NCBI RefSeq assembly: GCF_001856665.1
Contig: NZ_CP017781.1
Coordinates: 2,141,501 to 2,205,500 of the forward strand
Reading direction: 5' to 3'
From: Rhodobacter xanthinilyticus
Lineage (GTDB): Bacteria; Pseudomonadota; Alphaproteobacteria; Rhodobacterales; Rhodobacteraceae
DNA length: 64,000 bases
Position numbers and translations under genes: made by a program. Shown in pieces: positions 9,808-36,944 of this stretch; position 1 is the stretch's first letter; the number at the start of each line of letters is the position of its first letter. The notes under the pieces were generated by a model. It saw only the letters and a list, made by a program, of their open reading frames with translations. It did no database searches and was not told the origin of the DNA.

Positions 9808-10078
9808 GCCCTCGCGCCCGGGTGCCCTCCTCGCAAGGGCGGCGCCCGGCCCCGACCCCGGATTTGCGTATTTGGACCAAGAAGAAACGCATCCGCTTTC
9901 ATCTTGCCCCAAATATCCCGGGGGGAGGGCCGCAAGGCCCGGGGGGCAGCGCCCCCACCCCGCTCTCAAGAGGCGCCGCGCTGGCGCCTCTTGCTTTCGC
10001 CGAAAAAATTAAACGATAGTTCATTTCCAGAGTTTCGGGGAGGAAACCATGGAAATCACCGCGCCCCCGCGGCCCGCC
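9808..10078. other. Gap between mmsA and the methyltransferase gene
   Basis: This 271-bp gap holds repeat R2 (9866-9957). Next to the methyltransferase 3' end there is a well-formed GGGGAGGAAACC then ATG (10038-10051) on the + strand, opening only into antisense of the methyltransferase. It looks like a stranded translation start; no gene is supported. Confidence 0.6.
9866..9957. repeat. Compound intergenic repeat R2 (hybrid arms B and A2)
   Basis: A forward B arm (GCGTATTTGG, then ACCAAGAAGAAAC) at 9866-9888 pairs imperfectly with a reverse A2 arm (TTTCATCTTGCC, then CCAAATATCCC) at 9897-9919. GC-rich inverted sequence follows to 9957 (GGGGGGCAGCGCCCCC). The two arms are of different subtype. 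Confidence 0.8.
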
Positions 10079-30459: not shown

Positions 30460-31779
30460 TTGCCCAAACGCCTTCTTCTCCGCGTGAACGCGAGCCTCGA
30501 GCGCTGGCTGCCCGAGCAACGTCTGTTCATGAAATCCGACGACACCACCCGCTTCGTGCGGCTGCGCCCGCTGACGCAGCTCGCCGGGCTGGCGGGGGCG
30601 GCGCTCCTGTTCACCTGGGCGGTCATCGCCTCGGCGCTGCTGTTCATCGACGGGATCTCCTCGGGCTCGGCGCGCGACCAGGCCGCGATCGCGCGTGCGG
30701 CGTTCGAGAACCGCCTCGACAGCCTCGCCCGCGAGCGCGACAGCCGCGCCGCCGAGGCGCTGGCCGCGCAAAACCGTTTCCAGACCGCGCTCGAGCAGGT
30801 CTCGCAGATGCAATCGGCGCTGTTGGCTTCGGAAGAGCGCAACCGCGAGCTGCAGACCGGGATCAACGTCATCCAATCGACGCTGCGCCGCACGATGACC
30901 GAACGCGACGCCGCGCGCATCAAGCTCGCCGCCGCCGAGACCGGCACCGGCGCCGCCGGCCGCACGCCGAGCCTGCGCGCCGAGGAAATGGAGAGCACCG
31001 TCGACATGCTCTCGGCCGCGCTCGGCCAGGTCGCGACCGAGCGCGATCAGGCCAGCCAGGACGCCGCCGCGGCGCGCTCCGAAGCCGATGAGATCGCGCT
31101 GGAAAAACGCCTGCTCGAAGAGCGCAACGACGAGATCTTCACCACCCTCGAAGGCGCGGTGCAGATCTCGATGGCGCCGCTCGACAAGATGTTCAAGGCC
31201 GCCGGCATGAACCCCGACACCATCCTCAGCCAGGTGCGGCGCGGCTATTCGGGCACCGGCGGGCCGCTGATGCCGGTCTCGATCTCGTCGAAAAGCGTCG
31301 CCGATCTCTCCGCCGATGCCGCGCGCGCCAATGACATCCTCAAGCATCTCGACGCGATGAACATGTATCGCATCGCGCTCGACAAGCTGCCCTTCGCGCT
31401 GCCGGTGCGGCCGGGCAACTTCCGCTTCACCTCGCCCTTCGGCTATCGCTGGGGGCGGCTGCATGCGGGCGTCGATCTCGCGGGCTCGGTGGGCACGCCG
31501 ATCACCGCACCCGCCGACGGCACCGTCACCGCCGCCGAATGGGAAAGCGGCTACGGCAACGTCGTCAAGATCCGCCATGATTTCGGGATCTCGACCGTCT
31601 ACGGCCATCTGTCCAAAATCCGCGTGAGCGTCGGGCAAAAAGTCTCGCGCGGGGATCGCATCGGTGATATGGGCAATACCGGACGGTCCACGGGGCCGCA
31701 TCTGCACTATGAAATCCGGGTGGACGGTTCACCCACCAACCCGATGACCTTCATCAAGGCTGCCAGAGATGTTTTCTAA
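30460..31779 (+). CDS. M23-family peptidoglycan endopeptidase with coiled coil
   Basis: A 439-aa membrane-anchored LytM-type protein. The N-terminus (LNASLERW-like VNASLERWLPEQRLF) precedes a membrane segment at about 41-62. A long alanine/glutamate-rich coiled coil (about 70-225) and then the M23 domain follow: FRFTSPFGYRWGRLHAGVDLA with the first His and Asp ligands, YGHLSKI, and GRSTGPHLHYEIR with the HxH pair. All zinc ligands are present, so it should be active. I start it at TTG 30460, because the conserved N-terminal segment lies upstream of the first ATG (30529) and ACAGGA precedes the TTG. Its 3' end overlaps the bactofilin gene by 11 bp. Confidence 0.88.
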   Translation: MPKRLLLRVNASLERWLPEQRLFMKSDDTTRFVRLRPLTQLAGLAGAALLFTWAVIASALLFIDGISSGSARDQAAIARAAFENRLDSLARERDSRAAEALAAQNRFQTALEQVSQMQSALLASEERNRELQTGINVIQSTLRRTMTERDAARIKLAAAETGTGAAGRTPSLRAEEMESTVDMLSAALGQVATERDQASQDAAAARSEADEIALEKRLLEERNDEIFTTLEGAVQISMAPLDKMFKAAGMNPDTILSQVRRGYSGTGGPLMPVSISSKSVADLSADAARANDILKHLDAMNMYRIALDKLPFALPVRPGNFRFTSPFGYRWGRLHAGVDLAGSVGTPITAPADGTVTAAEWESGYGNVVKIRHDFGISTVYGHLSKIRVSVGQKVSRGDRIGDMGNTGRSTGPHLHYEIRVDGSPTNPMTFIKAARDVF

Positions 31780-32281
31780 GAGCAAAATCCACGAGCCGGG
31801 CCCCAAGGCCGCCGCCGAAACCGAGAAGCCGAAGGCCGAGACCTCGGTGCCCTCGCGTCCGATGGGCGATTTCGTGCCCACCGCGCGCGGCAAACCCGCG
31901 GCTTCGGTGCTCTCCTCCGACCTGACCGTGGTCGGCAATATCAAGACCACCGGCGACGTTCAGGTCGAGGGCGTGGTCGAGGGCGATATCCGCGCCCATC
32001 TGCTCACCGTCGGCGAAACCGCCACCATCAAGGGCGAGATCATCGCCGATGACGTGGTGATCAACGGCCGCGTCGTGGGCCGGGTGCGGGGCCTCAAGGT
32101 CCGCCTGACCTCGACCGCCCGCGTCGAGGGCGACATCATTCACAAGACCATCGCGATCGAGTCGGGCGCGCATTTCGAAGGCTCGGTGCAGCGTCAGGAA
32201 GACCCGCTGCAAGGCGCCGGCGCGCCGAAGCTCGCGCCGCCCGCGCCCGCCGCGCCGCAAGACCCCGCGCAGGGCCTCTGA
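31769..32281 (+). CDS. Bactofilin
   Basis: A 170-aa protein with a polar, disordered N-terminus (about 1-45), a bactofilin beta-helix core (about 46-150: SSDLTVVGNIKTTGDVQVEGVVEGDIRAH and repeated V/I-x-G-x-V turns such as VVINGRVVGRVRG) and a Pro/Ala tail. Bactofilins polymerise without nucleotides into scaffolds that localise cell-wall enzymes. The gene overlaps the M23 peptidase gene by 11 bp, so the two are translationally coupled, as in other bacteria where bactofilin and M23 peptidase together shape the cell. A strong terminator follows. Confidence 0.92.
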   Translation: MFSKSKIHEPGPKAAAETEKPKAETSVPSRPMGDFVPTARGKPAASVLSSDLTVVGNIKTTGDVQVEGVVEGDIRAHLLTVGETATIKGEIIADDVVINGRVVGRVRGLKVRLTSTARVEGDIIHKTIAIESGAHFEGSVQRQEDPLQGAGAPKLAPPAPAAPQDPAQGL

Positions 32282-32303
32282 GCCCGCCGCACAGCGCTTT
32301 GAG

Positions 32304-32328
32304 GAGCAGCCCCCGGGCTGCTCTTTTT
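32304..32328 (+). terminator. Terminator of the M23-bactofilin operon
   Basis: GAGCAGCC and GGCTGCTC flank CCCG and are followed by TTTTT, 22 bp after the bactofilin stop. Confidence 0.92.
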
Positions 32329-32526
32329 CATTCAGCAGGCTGCCGCCAAGTCACGGGCGCCCCGAATGAATTTACCGAATTTTCACCATAATTTCGGCCC
32401 AATCCGGCTCGAAGGTGCGGCGATCTTGAATCCAAAGCGTTTTGAGACCTGCCCTGAACGGATTTTCGCAAATGCCTGCCGCTGTCGCCCCGCTCGCCCT
32501 CCCCGCCGCCGCCCGGGGGCGCTGAG

Positions 32527-33693
32527 ATGGCGCTCTATTCGCTCCAGATCTTCTCCTTCTCGGCGGCCAGTTTCTCGCCCGCCTGGTTCACCCCGAATTG
32601 GAACCTCTCCGACGGCGGCTGGCCGAACGTCGCGGGCGCGGGGCTGACGATGACCGCCGCCCCTGCCGTCACCGCGCTGATCGAAGACACCGATCTCGAC
32701 GGCAGCACGCCGAGCTGGAACCCGGCGATGACCCTCTCCGCGCAAAGCCTCGATGACGACAGCAGCCACCAGATCCTGATGAACGACATCACCGTGAACG
32801 GCGTGACCTATCTCGCCGCCGACGGCAATGTCATCCAGGACGAATACGAGGTGACGCTGACCGATGGCACCAATACCTATCGCTTCGTCGGCATCTCGCT
32901 CTCGCCCGATGGCGGGGTCTCGAGCTCGCTGATCGGCTTCGCCTGGGACGGGCCGGCGCCGCCGGTCGGCGTGCCGCTCACCTATGTCTCGGGCAGCGCG
33001 AATGATTATCAAAGCGTGGTGCCCTGTTTCACCCCCGGCACCGAGATCCTCACCCCCACCGGCCCGCGCCCGATCGAGCGGCTGCGGGTCGGCGATCTCG
33101 TCACCACCCAGGGCCACGGCGCGCAGGTGCTGCGCTGGATCGGCAAGCGCCGGCTCTCGGCTCAGGTGCTGCGCGCCGCCCCCGAGCTGCGCCCGATCGT
33201 GATCGCGCCGGGCGCGCTCGGCCCGGGCCTGCCCGCGCGCGCGCTGCGCGTCTCGCCCCAGCACCGGATGCTGGTGCGCTCCGCCATCGCCGAGCGGATG
33301 AGCGGCACGCGCGAAGTGCTGGTCGCGGCCAAACAGCTCGTCGGCCTGCCGGGGATCACCGTCGATACCGATTGCACAGGCGTGGTCTATCTGCACCTGC
33401 TCTTCGACCGCCATGAGATCGTGACCGCGAACGGCGCGGCGAGCGAGTCGCTCTACACCGGCCAACAGGCGCTGCGCGCCTTCTCCCGCGCGCAGCGGCG
33501 CGAGCTCCTGACGCTGTTCCCCGAGCTTCTCGCCGCCCCGACCCCGCCCGAGCCCGCGCGGCTGATCCTCTCGGGCCGGCTCGGCCGCCGCCTCGCCCAG
33601 CGCCATCTGCAAAACGCCCGCGCCCTCGTCGAACCGGGCGCGAACGGCCTGCGCGCGCCGCCGCCGCGGGTGATCGGCGCGCCCCAAGGCTGA
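32527..33693 (+). CDS. Hint-domain protein (first of a tandem pair)
   Basis: A 388-aa protein. Residues 1-165 are rich in Ser, Asp, Thr and aromatic residues, without recognisable domain and without a classical signal peptide. A Hedgehog/Intein (Hint_2) domain begins at Cys167 (CFTPGTEILTPTGPRPIERLRVGD). Further Hint blocks follow: QGHGAQVLRWIGKRR, RVSPQHRMLVRS and VYLHLLFDRHEIVTANG. Hint domains catalyse an N-S acyl shift at the first cysteine; whether self-cleavage occurs here is unknown. The domain closely resembles that of the next gene while the N-terminal parts are unlike. Ribosome site weak. A terminator follows. Confidence 0.82.
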   Translation: MALYSLQIFSFSAASFSPAWFTPNWNLSDGGWPNVAGAGLTMTAAPAVTALIEDTDLDGSTPSWNPAMTLSAQSLDDDSSHQILMNDITVNGVTYLAADGNVIQDEYEVTLTDGTNTYRFVGISLSPDGGVSSSLIGFAWDGPAPPVGVPLTYVSGSANDYQSVVPCFTPGTEILTPTGPRPIERLRVGDLVTTQGHGAQVLRWIGKRRLSAQVLRAAPELRPIVIAPGALGPGLPARALRVSPQHRMLVRSAIAERMSGTREVLVAAKQLVGLPGITVDTDCTGVVYLHLLFDRHEIVTANGAASESLYTGQQALRAFSRAQRRELLTLFPELLAAPTPPEPARLILSGRLGRRLAQRHLQNARALVEPGANGLRAPPPRVIGAPQG

Positions 33694-33768
33694 GCGCGAC
33701 CGGCACCGCCCCCCCCCGGGGCGGCCAAAATCGTGGCCGATCCCCCTCACCTTCGCGCAAACCCCGCC

Positions 33769-33795
33769 AAAACCCGCCGCTTTCGGCGGGTTTTG
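33769..33795 (+). terminator. Terminator of the first Hint gene
   Basis: AAAACCCGCCG-CTTT-CGGCGGGTTTT is a perfect stem flanked by A and T runs, so it can work in both directions. Confidence 0.93.
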
Positions 33796-33940
33796 CTTGC
33801 TTTGCGGCCATTCTGTGGCAGCTTGGTTAACAGAAATTTACCACGATCCGCCGCCAAGACGGACGACCGAGCAGACCCACCCGATCCCGCCGCCCCCGCC
33901 CCCCCCCGGGCGCGGTCGCGCGCGATCCCCAAGGCAGGCC

Positions 33941-35086
33941 ATGGCGACCTATACCGACCCGATCTATCTCACCGGCGACATGCTGGCGAAGCTCTCCGGG
34001 CAGCCCACGAATCTGGGCAACCCGGGCGACGCGAATTTCGGGATCGTGCTGCCCAATGCCCAGGCGCTCTCGGGCTCCGACACGCTCTATCGCCTCGTCT
34101 GGACCGGCAACAAGAACGCCTCCGCGACCGAATTCTCGAACGGCCAGTTCTGGAAACTCGAGGTCTATACCCCCGGCATCGACAAGGACGGCGACCCGAC
34201 GACCGGCAACAGCGGCTGGAGCGCCTCGCCCGGTTTTGGCAACCTCACCCCGAAGAACGACCTCGTCGCGGGCCTCGGCGCGGGCGATGATTACATCGTC
34301 TTCGAAGGGCACGGCCAGTTTCTGCTGCTCGATCTCTCCGGCAATCTGCCGACCCAGCCGACCACGCTGACCTATTACGCCACCGACGAGCAGGGCGATA
34401 CGACGGTCGGCGACAATGACGGCCAGCTCGATTTCTCCGACGCCTATACCGCGCTCGACCCGATCTGCTTTTGCGCGGGCACCTTGATCGAAACCGCAAC
34501 CGGCCCGCGCGCGATCGAGACGCTGCGCCCGGGCGACCGGGTGCGCACACTCGATCACGGGCTGCAACCGCTGCGCTGGATCGGCCGGCGCGATCTCGAC
34601 GCGACCGCGCTCGCCGCCGCGCCCCATCTCGCGCCGGTCAGGATCCGCGCCGAGGCACTCGGCCGCGGCCTGCCACGCCACGATCTCCTCGTCTCGCCCC
34701 AACATCGGATCTTGCTGCGCTCCGCCATCGCCGAGCGGATGAGCGGCGCGCGCGAGGTGCTGATCGGCGCCAAACATCTCGTCGGCTATCCGGGCATCAC
34801 CCAGATGCCGCCCGGCGCGGGGCCGGTGAGCTACCTGCACCTGCTCTTCGACCGCCATGAGGTGGTCTTCGCCAATGGCGCCGAGGCGGAATCGCTCTAC
34901 ACTGGCGCGCAGGCGCTGCGCAGCCTGACCCGCGCCGCGCGCGCCGAGATCTTCGAGCTCTTCCCCGAACTGCGCCGCCCCGAGGCCGCCCCCGAAACCG
35001 CCCGCCCGCTGGCCAATGGCCGGATTGGCCGGAAGCTCAGCCTGCGCCACGCCAAGAACCACAAACCCCTGGTGATGGCAGGCTGA
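33941..35086 (+). CDS. Hint-domain protein (second of a tandem pair)
   Basis: A 381-aa protein. The N-terminal part (1-172) is again polar and Asp/Gly/Thr-rich, with acidic turns (DKDGDPTTGN near 81-90, and GDNDGQ near 157-162) that could bind calcium. The Hint_2 domain starts at Cys176 (CFCAGTLIETATGPRAIETLRPGD), then LDHGLQPLRWIGRRD, LVSPQHRILLRSAIAERMSGAREVL, and YLHLLFDRHEVVFANGAEAESLYTG. The start at ATG 33941 (MATYTDPIYLTGDM) follows AAGGCAGG. It has its own promoter region after a terminator and ends in repeat R6. Such proteins are often multicopy in Rhodobacterales; biochemical role unknown. Confidence 0.83.
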   Translation: MATYTDPIYLTGDMLAKLSGQPTNLGNPGDANFGIVLPNAQALSGSDTLYRLVWTGNKNASATEFSNGQFWKLEVYTPGIDKDGDPTTGNSGWSASPGFGNLTPKNDLVAGLGAGDDYIVFEGHGQFLLLDLSGNLPTQPTTLTYYATDEQGDTTVGDNDGQLDFSDAYTALDPICFCAGTLIETATGPRAIETLRPGDRVRTLDHGLQPLRWIGRRDLDATALAAAPHLAPVRIRAEALGRGLPRHDLLVSPQHRILLRSAIAERMSGAREVLIGAKHLVGYPGITQMPPGAGPVSYLHLLFDRHEVVFANGAEAESLYTGAQALRSLTRAARAEIFELFPELRRPEAAPETARPLANGRIGRKLSLRHAKNHKPLVMAG

Positions 35087-35129: not shown

Positions 35130-35192
35130 GCGTATTTGGACCAAGAAGAAACCAGGGGCGGCACTCCCCCCTTCTTCTTGGAAAAAATACGC
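35130..35192. repeat. Compound intergenic repeat R6 (B/B inverted pair)
   Basis: A forward B arm (35130-35152) and a reverse B arm (35172-35192) with a 19-nt loop. It sits between the convergent Hint and P-loop genes and contains no GC hairpin. Confidence 0.85.
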
Positions 35193-35228: not shown

Positions 35229-35813
35229 TCAGAGCACGCCCAGCGCCGCGAGCCGCGCCAGCGCCGCCTCGGTGATCTCCTCGACCGGGCGCGCGCCGGA
35301 AAGTTCGAGGATCGGCTCATCGCGCCCCGCAAGCCAGGCCCGGTGGCGGGTGAGCGAGCGGCCGCCGAAATAGGGCTCGTCATAAGAAGCCGCCCATTTC
35401 AGGAATTCCGCGTGATTGTGATAGAGATCGCCGCCGGGCTTCACCCGCGCGCCGAACTTTCCCGCCTCGCGCTTGCGGATCCGCGCAAGGCGCACCGGCG
35501 TCGGCGTGAGCACGAGGATGATCAGAGCGGCCCCCGCGATCGCGGGCTCGCCCCAGCCATCGGCCGCCCCCGAGAGCACCCAGCCGCCGGTTTCGCCCGC
35601 CGCCGCGCCCGCCGCCTCCTGCCCCGCCTGCGCGGCCGCGATCAGCGCCAGCCGCTCGGCCACCGGGCGCTTGGCGGTATAGGGCACCTCGCTCGGCGCC
35701 CAGAAGAAATCATCGGTATCGAGATGGGGCACGCTCAACCTTTCGGCGAGTGCGCGCCCGAGAGAGGAAGTTCCAGATCCTGCGGCGCCGGTGATATAGA
35801 CCCGCGCCGCCAT
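35229..35813 (-). CDS. P-loop adenylate-kinase-like protein
   Basis: A 194-aa NTP-binding protein. The P-loop is YITGAAGSGTSSLGRAL at about 6-22. PHLDTDDFFWAPSEVPY is the kinase-like substrate segment, LIILVLTPTPVRLARIRKREAGKFG the core strand plus lid-like basic region, and HAEFLKWAASYDEP a conserved block in relatives. It resembles adenylate kinase and AAA_17/AAA_18 proteins, but the substrate is unknown. The start lies 3 bp after the prfB stop, so it is the promoter-distal gene of the mrcA-prfB group. The end is convergent with the second Hint gene. Confidence 0.78.
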   Translation of the reverse strand: MAARVYITGAAGSGTSSLGRALAERLSVPHLDTDDFFWAPSEVPYTAKRPVAERLALIAAAQAGQEAAGAAAGETGGWVLSGAADGWGEPAIAGAALIILVLTPTPVRLARIRKREAGKFGARVKPGGDLYHNHAEFLKWAASYDEPYFGGRSLTRHRAWLAGRDEPILELSGARPVEEITEAALARLAALGVL

Positions 35814-35816
35814 GGA

Positions 35817-36944
35817 TCAATCCTCCGCCTGCGCATCGGCGCGGGATTTGCCCTCGACGCCCATCGCCAATGTCGCCGCCATGAACCCGTCGAGATCGCC
35901 GTCGAGCACGCCTTGCGTATCGGAGGTCTCGTAGCCGGTGCGCAGATCCTTCACCATCTGATAGGGCTGGAGCACATAGGAGCGGATCTGGTTGCCCCAG
36001 CCGGCATCGCCCTTGGCCTCATGGGCCGCGTTGATCGCCGCGTTGCGCTTCTCGAGCTCGAGCTGATAGAGCCGCGAGCGCAGCGCATTCATCGCGATCT
36101 CGCGGTTCTGGTGCTGCGATTTCATCGAGCTCGTCACCACGATATTGGTCGGCAAGTGGGTGATCCGCACCGCCGAGTCGGTGGTGTTGACGTGCTGGCC
36201 GCCCGCGCCCGAGGAGCGATAGGTATCGATGCGGATATCGCTGGCGGGGATGTCGATCTCGATATTGTCGTCGACGACCGGATAGACCCAGACCGAGCTG
36301 AACGAGGTATGCCGCCGCGCCGCCGAGTCATAGGGCGAGATCCGCACGAGCCGGTGCACGCCCGATTCCGATTTCAGCCAGCCATAGGCATTGGGCCCCG
36401 AGATCTTGTAGGCGGCGGATTTGATCCCCGCCTCGTCGCCCGCCGATTCCGACTGCAGCTCGACCTTGTAGCCCTTTTTCTCCGCCCAGCGCACATACAT
36501 CCGCGCCAGAATCGAGGCCCAATCGCAGCTCTCCGTGCCGCCCGCGCCGGCGTTGATCTCGAGGAAGGTGTCGTTGCCATCGGCCTCGCCATCGAGCAGC
36601 GCCTCAAGCTCCTTCGCGGCGGCGAATTCGCGGGTCTCCTTGAGCGATTTCTCGGCCTCGGCGACGATCTCCGGGTCGCCCTCGGCCTCGCCGAGCTCGA
36701 TCAGCTCGACATTGTCGGTCAGCTCGCGCTCGATCTTGCGATAGGTCTCGACCTTGTCCATCAGCATCTGCCGCTCGCGCATCAGCTTTTGCGCGCGCGC
36801 CGGGTCGGACCACAGATCGCCGTCCTCGATCATGGCGTTGAATTCCTCCAGCCGGTGCGGGGCGGTTTCCCAATCCATCCGCTGGGCCAGAAGTTTCAGC
36901 GATTTCTTGATCGCTTCCACGGTATTGAGCGTCTCGGCGCGCAT
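35817..36944 (-). CDS. prfB: Peptide chain release factor 2
   Basis: RF2 terminates translation at UGA and UAA. The product is 375 aa in one uninterrupted frame, so the programmed +1 frameshift of many prfB genes is absent. The catalytic GGQ motif is in [16 protein letters not shown]. The tripeptide that reads the stop codon, SPF in E. coli, appears as SPY in [16 protein letters not shown]. The N-terminal helical domain (about 1-100) is intact. The ATG follows GAGGAC. It lies between mrcA upstream (84 bp) and a P-loop gene downstream (3 bp). Confidence 0.96.

Follow-up and report, generated by a model that had tools for sequence, protein, structure and literature searches.

Tandem Hint_2 proteins with unrelated N-terminal passengers in Rhodobacter xanthinilyticus and passenger replacement in related genomes

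We report on a tandem pair of genes in a 64,000-nucleotide stretch of Rhodobacter xanthinilyticus DNA (contig NZ_CP017781.1, positions 2,141,501 to 2,205,500; hereafter the window), each encoding an N-terminal passenger, a Hint domain of the Pfam family Hint_2 and a conserved C-terminal tail. The two passengers are unrelated, and at two syntenic sites in related genomes the passenger of such a protein has been replaced while the Hint was retained, the break falling where the Hint sequence begins. By fold and residue set the shared part resembles type-B bacterial intein-like (BIL) domains and Hedgehog, and we regard it as fairly probable that it is a module for N-terminal cleavage or acyl transfer whose passengers resemble exoproteins and can be exchanged. 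In Rhodobacterales, Hint_2 genes occur in many copies and lack an explanation, and one study (PMC12487129) names Hint_2 among the domains that are over-represented in strongly responding Rhodobacteraceae. Should the module prove to cut or transfer its passenger, that would explain why the family exists and provide a bacterial parallel to Hedgehog processing; replacement in place shows a route by which such proteins diversify.

Architecture, fold and catalytic residues

Both genes lie on the + strand, with a bactofilin gene on one side and an AAA_18 kinase-like gene followed by the release factor 2 gene on the other. Cys1 denotes the cysteine at the N-terminal edge of the Hint.

32527-33693, + strand: Hint protein 1 (H04), open reading frame of 388 aa plus stop; Hint_2 E 3.6e-56
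32527-33024, + strand: passenger 1, residues 1-166; isoelectric point (pI) 4.05, no lysine
33025-33027, + strand: Cys1 codon (Cys167) of Hint 1, from alignment and structural superposition
33022-33462, + strand: Hint_2 domain 1, residues 166-312; SPQH 243-246, His290, His296, and Glu307-Ser308 at the intein His-Asn position
33463-33690, + strand: conserved C-terminal tail 1 (76 residues), outside the Pfam model; conserved columns P332, A344, R345, G350, R354, R359 and H360
33941-35086, + strand: Hint protein 2 (H03), open reading frame of 381 aa plus stop; Hint_2 E 7.9e-57
33941-34465, + strand: passenger 2, residues 1-175; pI 4.05, unrelated to passenger 1
34466-34468, + strand: Cys1 codon (Cys176) of Hint 2, from alignment
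34463-34906, + strand: Hint_2 domain 2, residues 175-322; SPQH 252-255, His300, His306, Glu317-Ser318
34907-35083, + strand: conserved C-terminal tail 2 (59 residues), from alignment and model

For the second gene the list of open reading frames gives a TTG start at 33797; relatives begin at the ATG at 33941 (conserved TYTDPI), which yields 381 aa. Both proteins match the whole Hint_2 model (PF13403, E about 1e-56) with 190.1 and 192.2 bits against a curated cut-off of 28.4, and in the Pfam scan of the two proteins nothing except Hint_2 was above its cut-off. RTX calcium repeats (GGxGxDxxx) gave no Pfam match in either protein, and NCBIfam gave zero matches for the window proteins. The original prediction of adjacent proteins with a common Hint_2 domain at Cys167 and Cys176 is borne out by both open reading frames and their Pfam matches, and the blocks that it named (RVSPQHR/LVSPQHR and YLHLLFDRHE) are found exactly as described. 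The Hint parts are 60% identical. The N-terminal halves, said to be acidic and unlike, both have a pI of 4.05, and their families show no detectable kinship in a profile-profile comparison (hhalign probability 0.2%).

In alignments of relatives (57 and 55 rows) Cys167/176, both block-F histidines and Glu307/317 are invariant, as are the Ser, Gln and His of SPQH. In the AlphaFold models the Hint parts of both proteins mostly have a predicted local distance difference test (pLDDT) score >90; passenger 1 is mostly beta, with parts <50, and in tail 1 a helix at 350-362 (about 95) follows a stretch at 61-69. Foldseek searches with both models returned BIL domains and inteins as the best solved structures, 2lwy and 6y75 heading the fold lists, which agrees with a HINT superfamily fold having Cys1 at its N-terminal edge. 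The protein 1 model superposes on the BIL domain 2lwy, which we take to be of type A, with Z 14.3 and a root mean square deviation of 2.0 over 117 residues, and on Hedgehog with Z 12.0 (6tyy) and Z 11.7 (1at0, from chain residue 258 onward). Residue 167 thereby coincides with intein residue 1 and with Hedgehog residue 258, presumably the processing cysteine of fly Hedgehog, and residue 308 lies near the last residue of the intein. No structural-alignment row for protein 1 extends past residue 337, and a conserved, partly helical tail follows the Hint. The Pfam model also ends before this tail, and the sources consulted attach no exchange mechanism to the family.

By motif and fold the window Hints resemble type-B BIL domains, which reviews describe as cleaving without splicing (PMC4031507, PMC7765530): they have the block A Cys (167/176), the block B SPQH (T/S-x-x-H) and the block F His296/306, they have Glu-Ser (307-308, 317-318) and no intein block G His-Asn, and their hosts are variable. 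They differ in being C-terminal, in the invariant Glu-Ser/Thr and in the conserved tail. With the Hog domain of Hedgehog they share the order of passenger, Hint and C-terminal region (layout in PMC2362128) and the placement of residue 167 on Hedgehog residue 258. Unlike Hedgehog, the family has many passenger types, and its tail is likened to the sterol- or adduct-recognition region (SRR/ARR) by position only, the acceptor being hypothetical.

Residue statistics were taken from 146 Hint_2 proteins forming eight complete repertoires, of which 110 have Cys1 and 36 lack it; Cys1 was scored as a column of a MAFFT alignment, and paralogue H10 (L023), with a Cys and then extra residues, was scored as having it. 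An intein-like or type-A BIL element that splices or cuts on its C side would have the same fold. We consider it most improbable, since Glu replaces the penultimate His in 110/110 of the proteins with Cys1 and is followed by Ser in 81, Thr in 21 and Asn in one (n = 103). In the window proteins, moreover, the terminal His-Asn of inteins with the subsequent Cys/Ser/Thr is lacking, and a conserved tail stands where a C-terminal extein would be.

Passenger replacement at syntenic sites and passenger divergence in tandem arrays

At the first of the two sites, Ruegeria sp. A3M17 (L105) and R. atlantica HKCCA5752 (L119) have 87-88% DNA identity over 12.6 kb with the exception of a block (5324-5997/5347-5997) that comprises the passenger and approximately 185 or 220 bases upstream of the gene. 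Over the first ~90 bases of the Hint 54/90 positions are identical, and thereafter 428/510 (Fisher p 1e-6), which places the break within the first ~32 Hint codons. The two passengers give no direct hit (z 0.4 against shuffled sequences). The second site was compared in six Paracoccus species and lies near an isocitrate dehydrogenase gene (by eye), a neighbour that is also found at L018 in R. xanthinilyticus. Two passenger classes occur there (L141, L146 and L160 versus L139, L153 and L168), with identities of 0.40-0.52 within and 0.18-0.24 between classes, the Hint beyond residue 40 being 0.55-0.71 identical across both. Between the classes there are no direct phmmer hits, the hhalign probability is 7% and z ranges from -0.3 to 3.8. 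L141 and L139 are alike up to 5289 and again from 5996, just ahead of Cys1. In the parts of the literature covered by our search we found no site-level case of such exchange; for BIL domains in general, a review proposes a role in protein variability and genetic rearrangement (PMC7765530).

The window's own site was located in other genomes by means of the release factor 2 gene, and 41 genomes (the window and 40 others) were read. The bordering genes in the window are as follows.

31769-32281, + strand: bactofilin, left border; PF04519 2.4e-23
35229-35813, - strand: AAA_18 kinase-like gene, right border; PF13238 2.7e-06, just under the cut-off
35817-36944, - strand: peptide chain release factor 2 (PF03462/PF00472), the anchor for locating the site

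The passengers at this site differ from genus to genus. G071 and UBA6796 (L095) have the second gene's type alone, Thioclava marina (L154) and Pacificibacter marinus (L093) have the first type alone, beside release factor 2, and G029 has a third passenger, while the window has both types in tandem; bactofilin was not recognised at the site in T. marina, P. marinus and G029. Bactofilin stands beside release factor 2 in 21 of the 41 genomes, two with Hint genes (G000 and G071) and 19 without; in the remaining 20, a single Hint gene lies on that side in G029 and a single one beyond the penicillin-binding protein gene in G098. Besides Hint cross-matches, gene 1 and its surroundings (32258-33945) have no DNA counterpart in G071. 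A clean insertion of gene 1 into an ancestral site was rejected, because in G071, UBA6796 and Thioclava that place is occupied by a common stretch of ~0.75 kb upstream of the Hint gene, absent from the window (in UBA6796 with an open reading frame of ~280 aa).

Tandem arrays allow the divergence of passengers and Hints to be compared. In genome G097 seven Hint genes lie within 20 kb (L247), and G030 has five, with a sixth farther away (L229). Hint identity within L247 is 58-87%, and of the 21 passenger pairs 20 are near the shuffled level (z <=2.3, at Hint identities of 0.58-0.73), the remaining pair having z 14. Five orthologue pairs with Hint identities of 0.73-0.76 have passenger identities of 0.46-0.70, and in 42 cross-genome pairs, selected for detectably related passengers, the Hints have a median identity of 0.59 and the passengers one of 0.48. 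Orthologues at like Hint identity keep their passengers, whereas those of L247 are mostly hardly more alike than shuffled sequences; the two parts of the protein therefore seem to differ in age in L247 and to be of similar age between orthologues.

Strain-level hypervariability was looked for and not seen among the plasmids of four Phaeobacter inhibens and two Paracoccus yeei strains. The former have one passenger, 93-99% identical, and in the latter it differs at 1/162 residues. The same Hint gene has differing surroundings on the four P. inhibens plasmids, all typed as conjugative (L373, L374, L376 and L377), and once lies near an IS3 transposase gene, so that it may also move as a unit.

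Family census and co-loss of Cys1, catalytic residues and passenger

The genome-wide count of paralogues gave 17 Hint_2 genes in R. xanthinilyticus. Summed from per-genome rows, there are 861 in 100 genomes of the family (own genome included), present in 87 of them with a median of 9 and a maximum of 23; ten genomes of other families have zero. Protein 1 also has matches in plasmid records of Sinorhizobium, Rhizobium and Acetobacter, and the domain therefore reaches beyond Rhodobacterales. Among the best 80 of 585 matches the named relatives are chiefly Paracoccus, plus Ruegeria, Gemmobacter and others. In 198 genomes of the family, own included, passenger 1 was matched at E <= 0.001 in 29, and a match to passenger 2 was found in 5. 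Protein 2 had no match in the phage collection, and Hint 2 had no DNA match in the E. coli genomes.

Cys1 is lost together with the other catalytic residues and the passenger. All 110 proteins with Cys1 have both catalytic histidines (blocks B and F), the Glu and a tail of 30 aa or more; among the 36 without it, the block-B His is found in 1, the block-F His in 12, the Glu in 12 and such a tail in 24. For the three residues the Fisher p-values are 6e-33, 7e-19 and 7e-19, which overstate independence, the proteins being related. A passenger of at least 80 aa (first-ATG estimate) was found in 104/110 and 8/36, respectively. The tail is coupled to Cys1 less tightly, two thirds of the Cys1-less proteins retaining one. 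Because the losses coincide, the simplest reading is that the chemistry of Cys1 serves the passenger, and that paralogues without a passenger have decayed or gained another use.

These data also bear on the view that the Hint has a structural or regulatory role at the C-terminus and does no autoprocessing, and that the N-terminal variation is ordinary paralogue divergence. The 36/146 paralogues without Cys1 speak for it, as does one Cys1-less class with common neighbours in eight genomes, which points to non-catalytic uses of the fold. We find it rather unlikely, given the full residue set in every protein with Cys1, the loss of the passenger along with Cys1, and the break of in-place replacement at the Hint boundary.

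The Cys1-less class just mentioned (L028, at 1592946-1593326 of the R. xanthinilyticus genome, L240, L242, L258, L281, L298, L308 and L323) is almost tail-less, and glutamine synthetase- and PII-like genes lie near most members (by eye); as its neighbours are kept in eight genomes, its non-catalytic Hint seems to have a conserved job. A second Cys1-less class (L026, L239, L252, L267, L271, L297 and L312) has a prolipoprotein diacylglyceryl transferase-like gene nearby in 6/7 cases (by eye). A further conserved Hint pair was found at L020 (own genome 2880188-2881689), L233, L256, L270, L287, L306 and L320; the R. xanthinilyticus copy has an Ig-like domain in its passenger and an intact Hint, and the adjoining second Hint gene lacks Cys1 in 5/7 genomes.

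Passengers, export and the proposed mechanism

The 110 passengers of proteins with Cys1 fall into 38 sequence clusters, 12 of which occur in at least two of the eight genomes. The clustering input comprised 220 proteins with Cys1 out of 257 distinct ones, and single linkage merged both Paracoccus classes into one cluster (F0) despite zero direct hits between them. By hhalign the passenger 1 family lies near the clusters F5 (93% over 100 columns) and F15 (81% over 45). Starts based on Shine-Dalgarno sequences gave passenger 1 as an internal-ATG form (99 of 166 aa), which entered the residue-set counts, the array and orthologue identities, the z comparisons and some of the composition data; the full passenger 1 was used for the 198-genome search, the >=80-aa count, the profile-profile comparison and the composition of the window passengers.

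This diversity, together with exchange in place, agrees with the predicted layout of a constant C-terminal Hint and variable N-terminal fusions. The suggested likeness to polymorphic toxin or contact-dependent systems, in which the Hint would release the passenger as a toxin, did not hold up, and we judge it very unlikely. A variable part joined to an autoprocessing HINT domain is typical of polymorphic toxin systems, and the toxin follows HINT there (PMC3482391). In the window proteins it is the other way round, the variable part coming first and the Hint being followed by nothing but a conserved tail (76 or 59 residues). Pfam recognised no toxin domain in the 11 proteins scanned, and no immunity-like family was recognised in the six nearest neighbours of the pair (AhpC/TSA peroxiredoxin, M23 peptidase, bactofilin, AAA_18 kinase-like protein, release factor 2 and class A penicillin-binding protein), although immunity proteins can be unrecognisable. 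Related passengers are also kept between genomes, some paralogues having a single type across genera (F4 with 8 members, F2 with 11), and the four P. inhibens and the two P. yeei strains each have one passenger.

In composition the passengers are acidic and mostly lysine-poor, with a median lysine content of 0.24% and a pI of 4.05 (104 passengers), compared with 2.6-6.5% lysine in the six window neighbours; six RTX frames of the same genome without a Hint have 0.2-1.5%. A strongly hydrophobic start was found in 0/106 passengers (a heuristic applied to estimated starts). On balance the passengers thus seem to resemble exoproteins exported without Sec; a surface location is plausible, with composition as its sole basis, and surface or matrix proteins would be the most likely biological role. 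The possible calcium turns of the original prediction gain a little from a strict loop-like motif, found in 8/77 non-RTX passengers against a shuffled mean of 2.5 (maximum 7, 200 shuffles); a looser motif occurs in 10/77 against a shuffled mean of 5.2 (maximum 12), and passenger 1 holds only the looser form. In sequence searches for folds passenger 2 gave one row (E 0.09, an adhesin) and passenger 1 none, the top fold-search rows being nearly all Hint domains.

As predicted, the six nearest neighbours include no secretion gene; elsewhere in the genome there is a match to a type I exporter of the PrtD type (3442898). RTX calcium repeats are present in 3/17 of the R. xanthinilyticus paralogues, and in RTX-Hint proteins the Hint and tail occupy the place expected for a C-terminal signal. 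Across the 100 genomes Hint_2 occurs in 82/89 with a PrtD match over the cut-off versus 5/11 without (Fisher p 5e-4). This placement, the lack of hydrophobic starts and the RTX-like composition would fit a Hint and tail that serve chiefly as a type I secretion signal, cut off after export, and not as an acyl-transfer enzyme. We nevertheless think this unlikely, as the tail is well conserved, which type I secretion signals usually are not, and the PrtD association is incomplete. A variant in which the Hint caps a type I signal that cleavage unmasks was rejected: of the 220 proteins, few (3 by motif, 2 by profile, 4 distinct ones) have an RTX-type C-terminal module directly ahead of Cys1, and in two RTX-Hint proteins the same module is also found 194 and 1240 residues ahead of Cys1.

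The reading that we prefer is thus a type-B BIL-like, Hedgehog-like module. Its Hint would form an N-terminal thioester at Cys1 by an N-to-S acyl shift, as in inteins, BIL domains and Hedgehog, and this shift is described as the common first step of the fold (PMC7664689, PMC4031507). Splicing would not be expected, as Glu-Ser/Thr replaces the terminal His-Asn of inteins and disfavours Asn cyclisation. Water or another nucleophile would resolve the thioester, and the passenger would depart from the Hint and tail, either free or joined by its C-terminus to an acceptor. We consider cleavage at Cys1 quite likely, and transfer of the passenger to a specific acceptor through the tail doubtful. A secreted protein described as autocleaving and transferring a fragment to a lysine of another protein offers an analogy (PMC3034196). 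For the proteins studied here, exchange would take place by recombination at the 5' end of the Hint, with the Hint and tail as the constant part; tandem pairs and arrays would be the likely donors or intermediates, recombination between two similar Hints swapping the passenger, and export would probably be of type I. The secreted protein taken as an analogy uses a different chemistry, involving the fragment's C-terminal Asp, and is not known to have a Hint fold.

A more far-reaching and quite tentative extension would be a bacterial Hedgehog-like system. In it the tail would recruit a lipid, a glycan, an amine or a surface protein as acceptor, to which the Hint would attach any passenger by its C-terminus. 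Rhodobacterales would then have a single constant attachment module and, to go with it, a stock of interchangeable surface domains, most of them lysine-poor. Recombination within the Hint sequence would shift these domains from one tandem paralogue to another and so provide modular display and diversification, apart from both toxins and splicing.

Several observations weigh against the preferred reading. In the array L229 kinship between passengers can often be recognised (z 0 to 14.6 and Hint identity 0.65-0.81 in 10 pairs), and fast divergence may account for part of the passenger variation. The two Ruegeria passengers are possibly remote kin, judging from the match of the F15 profile to the H04 family, and one Paracoccus between-class pair reaches the z of 3.8. 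Exchange appears to be slow, because passengers are constant within species among the few strains compared. Passenger 2, with 2.9% lysine, is not lysine-poor, and the small passengers yielded no export signal. Type I secretion is only weakly linked to the family: kinship between genomes may explain the PrtD association, and G061 has 12 Hint_2 genes and no PrtD match over the cut-off.

On the 3' side of the Hint pair, at 35130-35192 of the window, lies a palindromic repeat (GCGTATTTGGACCAAGAAGAAA and its inverted partner), the left arm of which has exact copies also at window positions 9866 and 30173. At up to 3 mismatches the genome contains 127 copies (66 forward and 61 reverse), compared with 0 for the reversed control, and the element resembles repetitive extragenic palindromic (REP) sequences.

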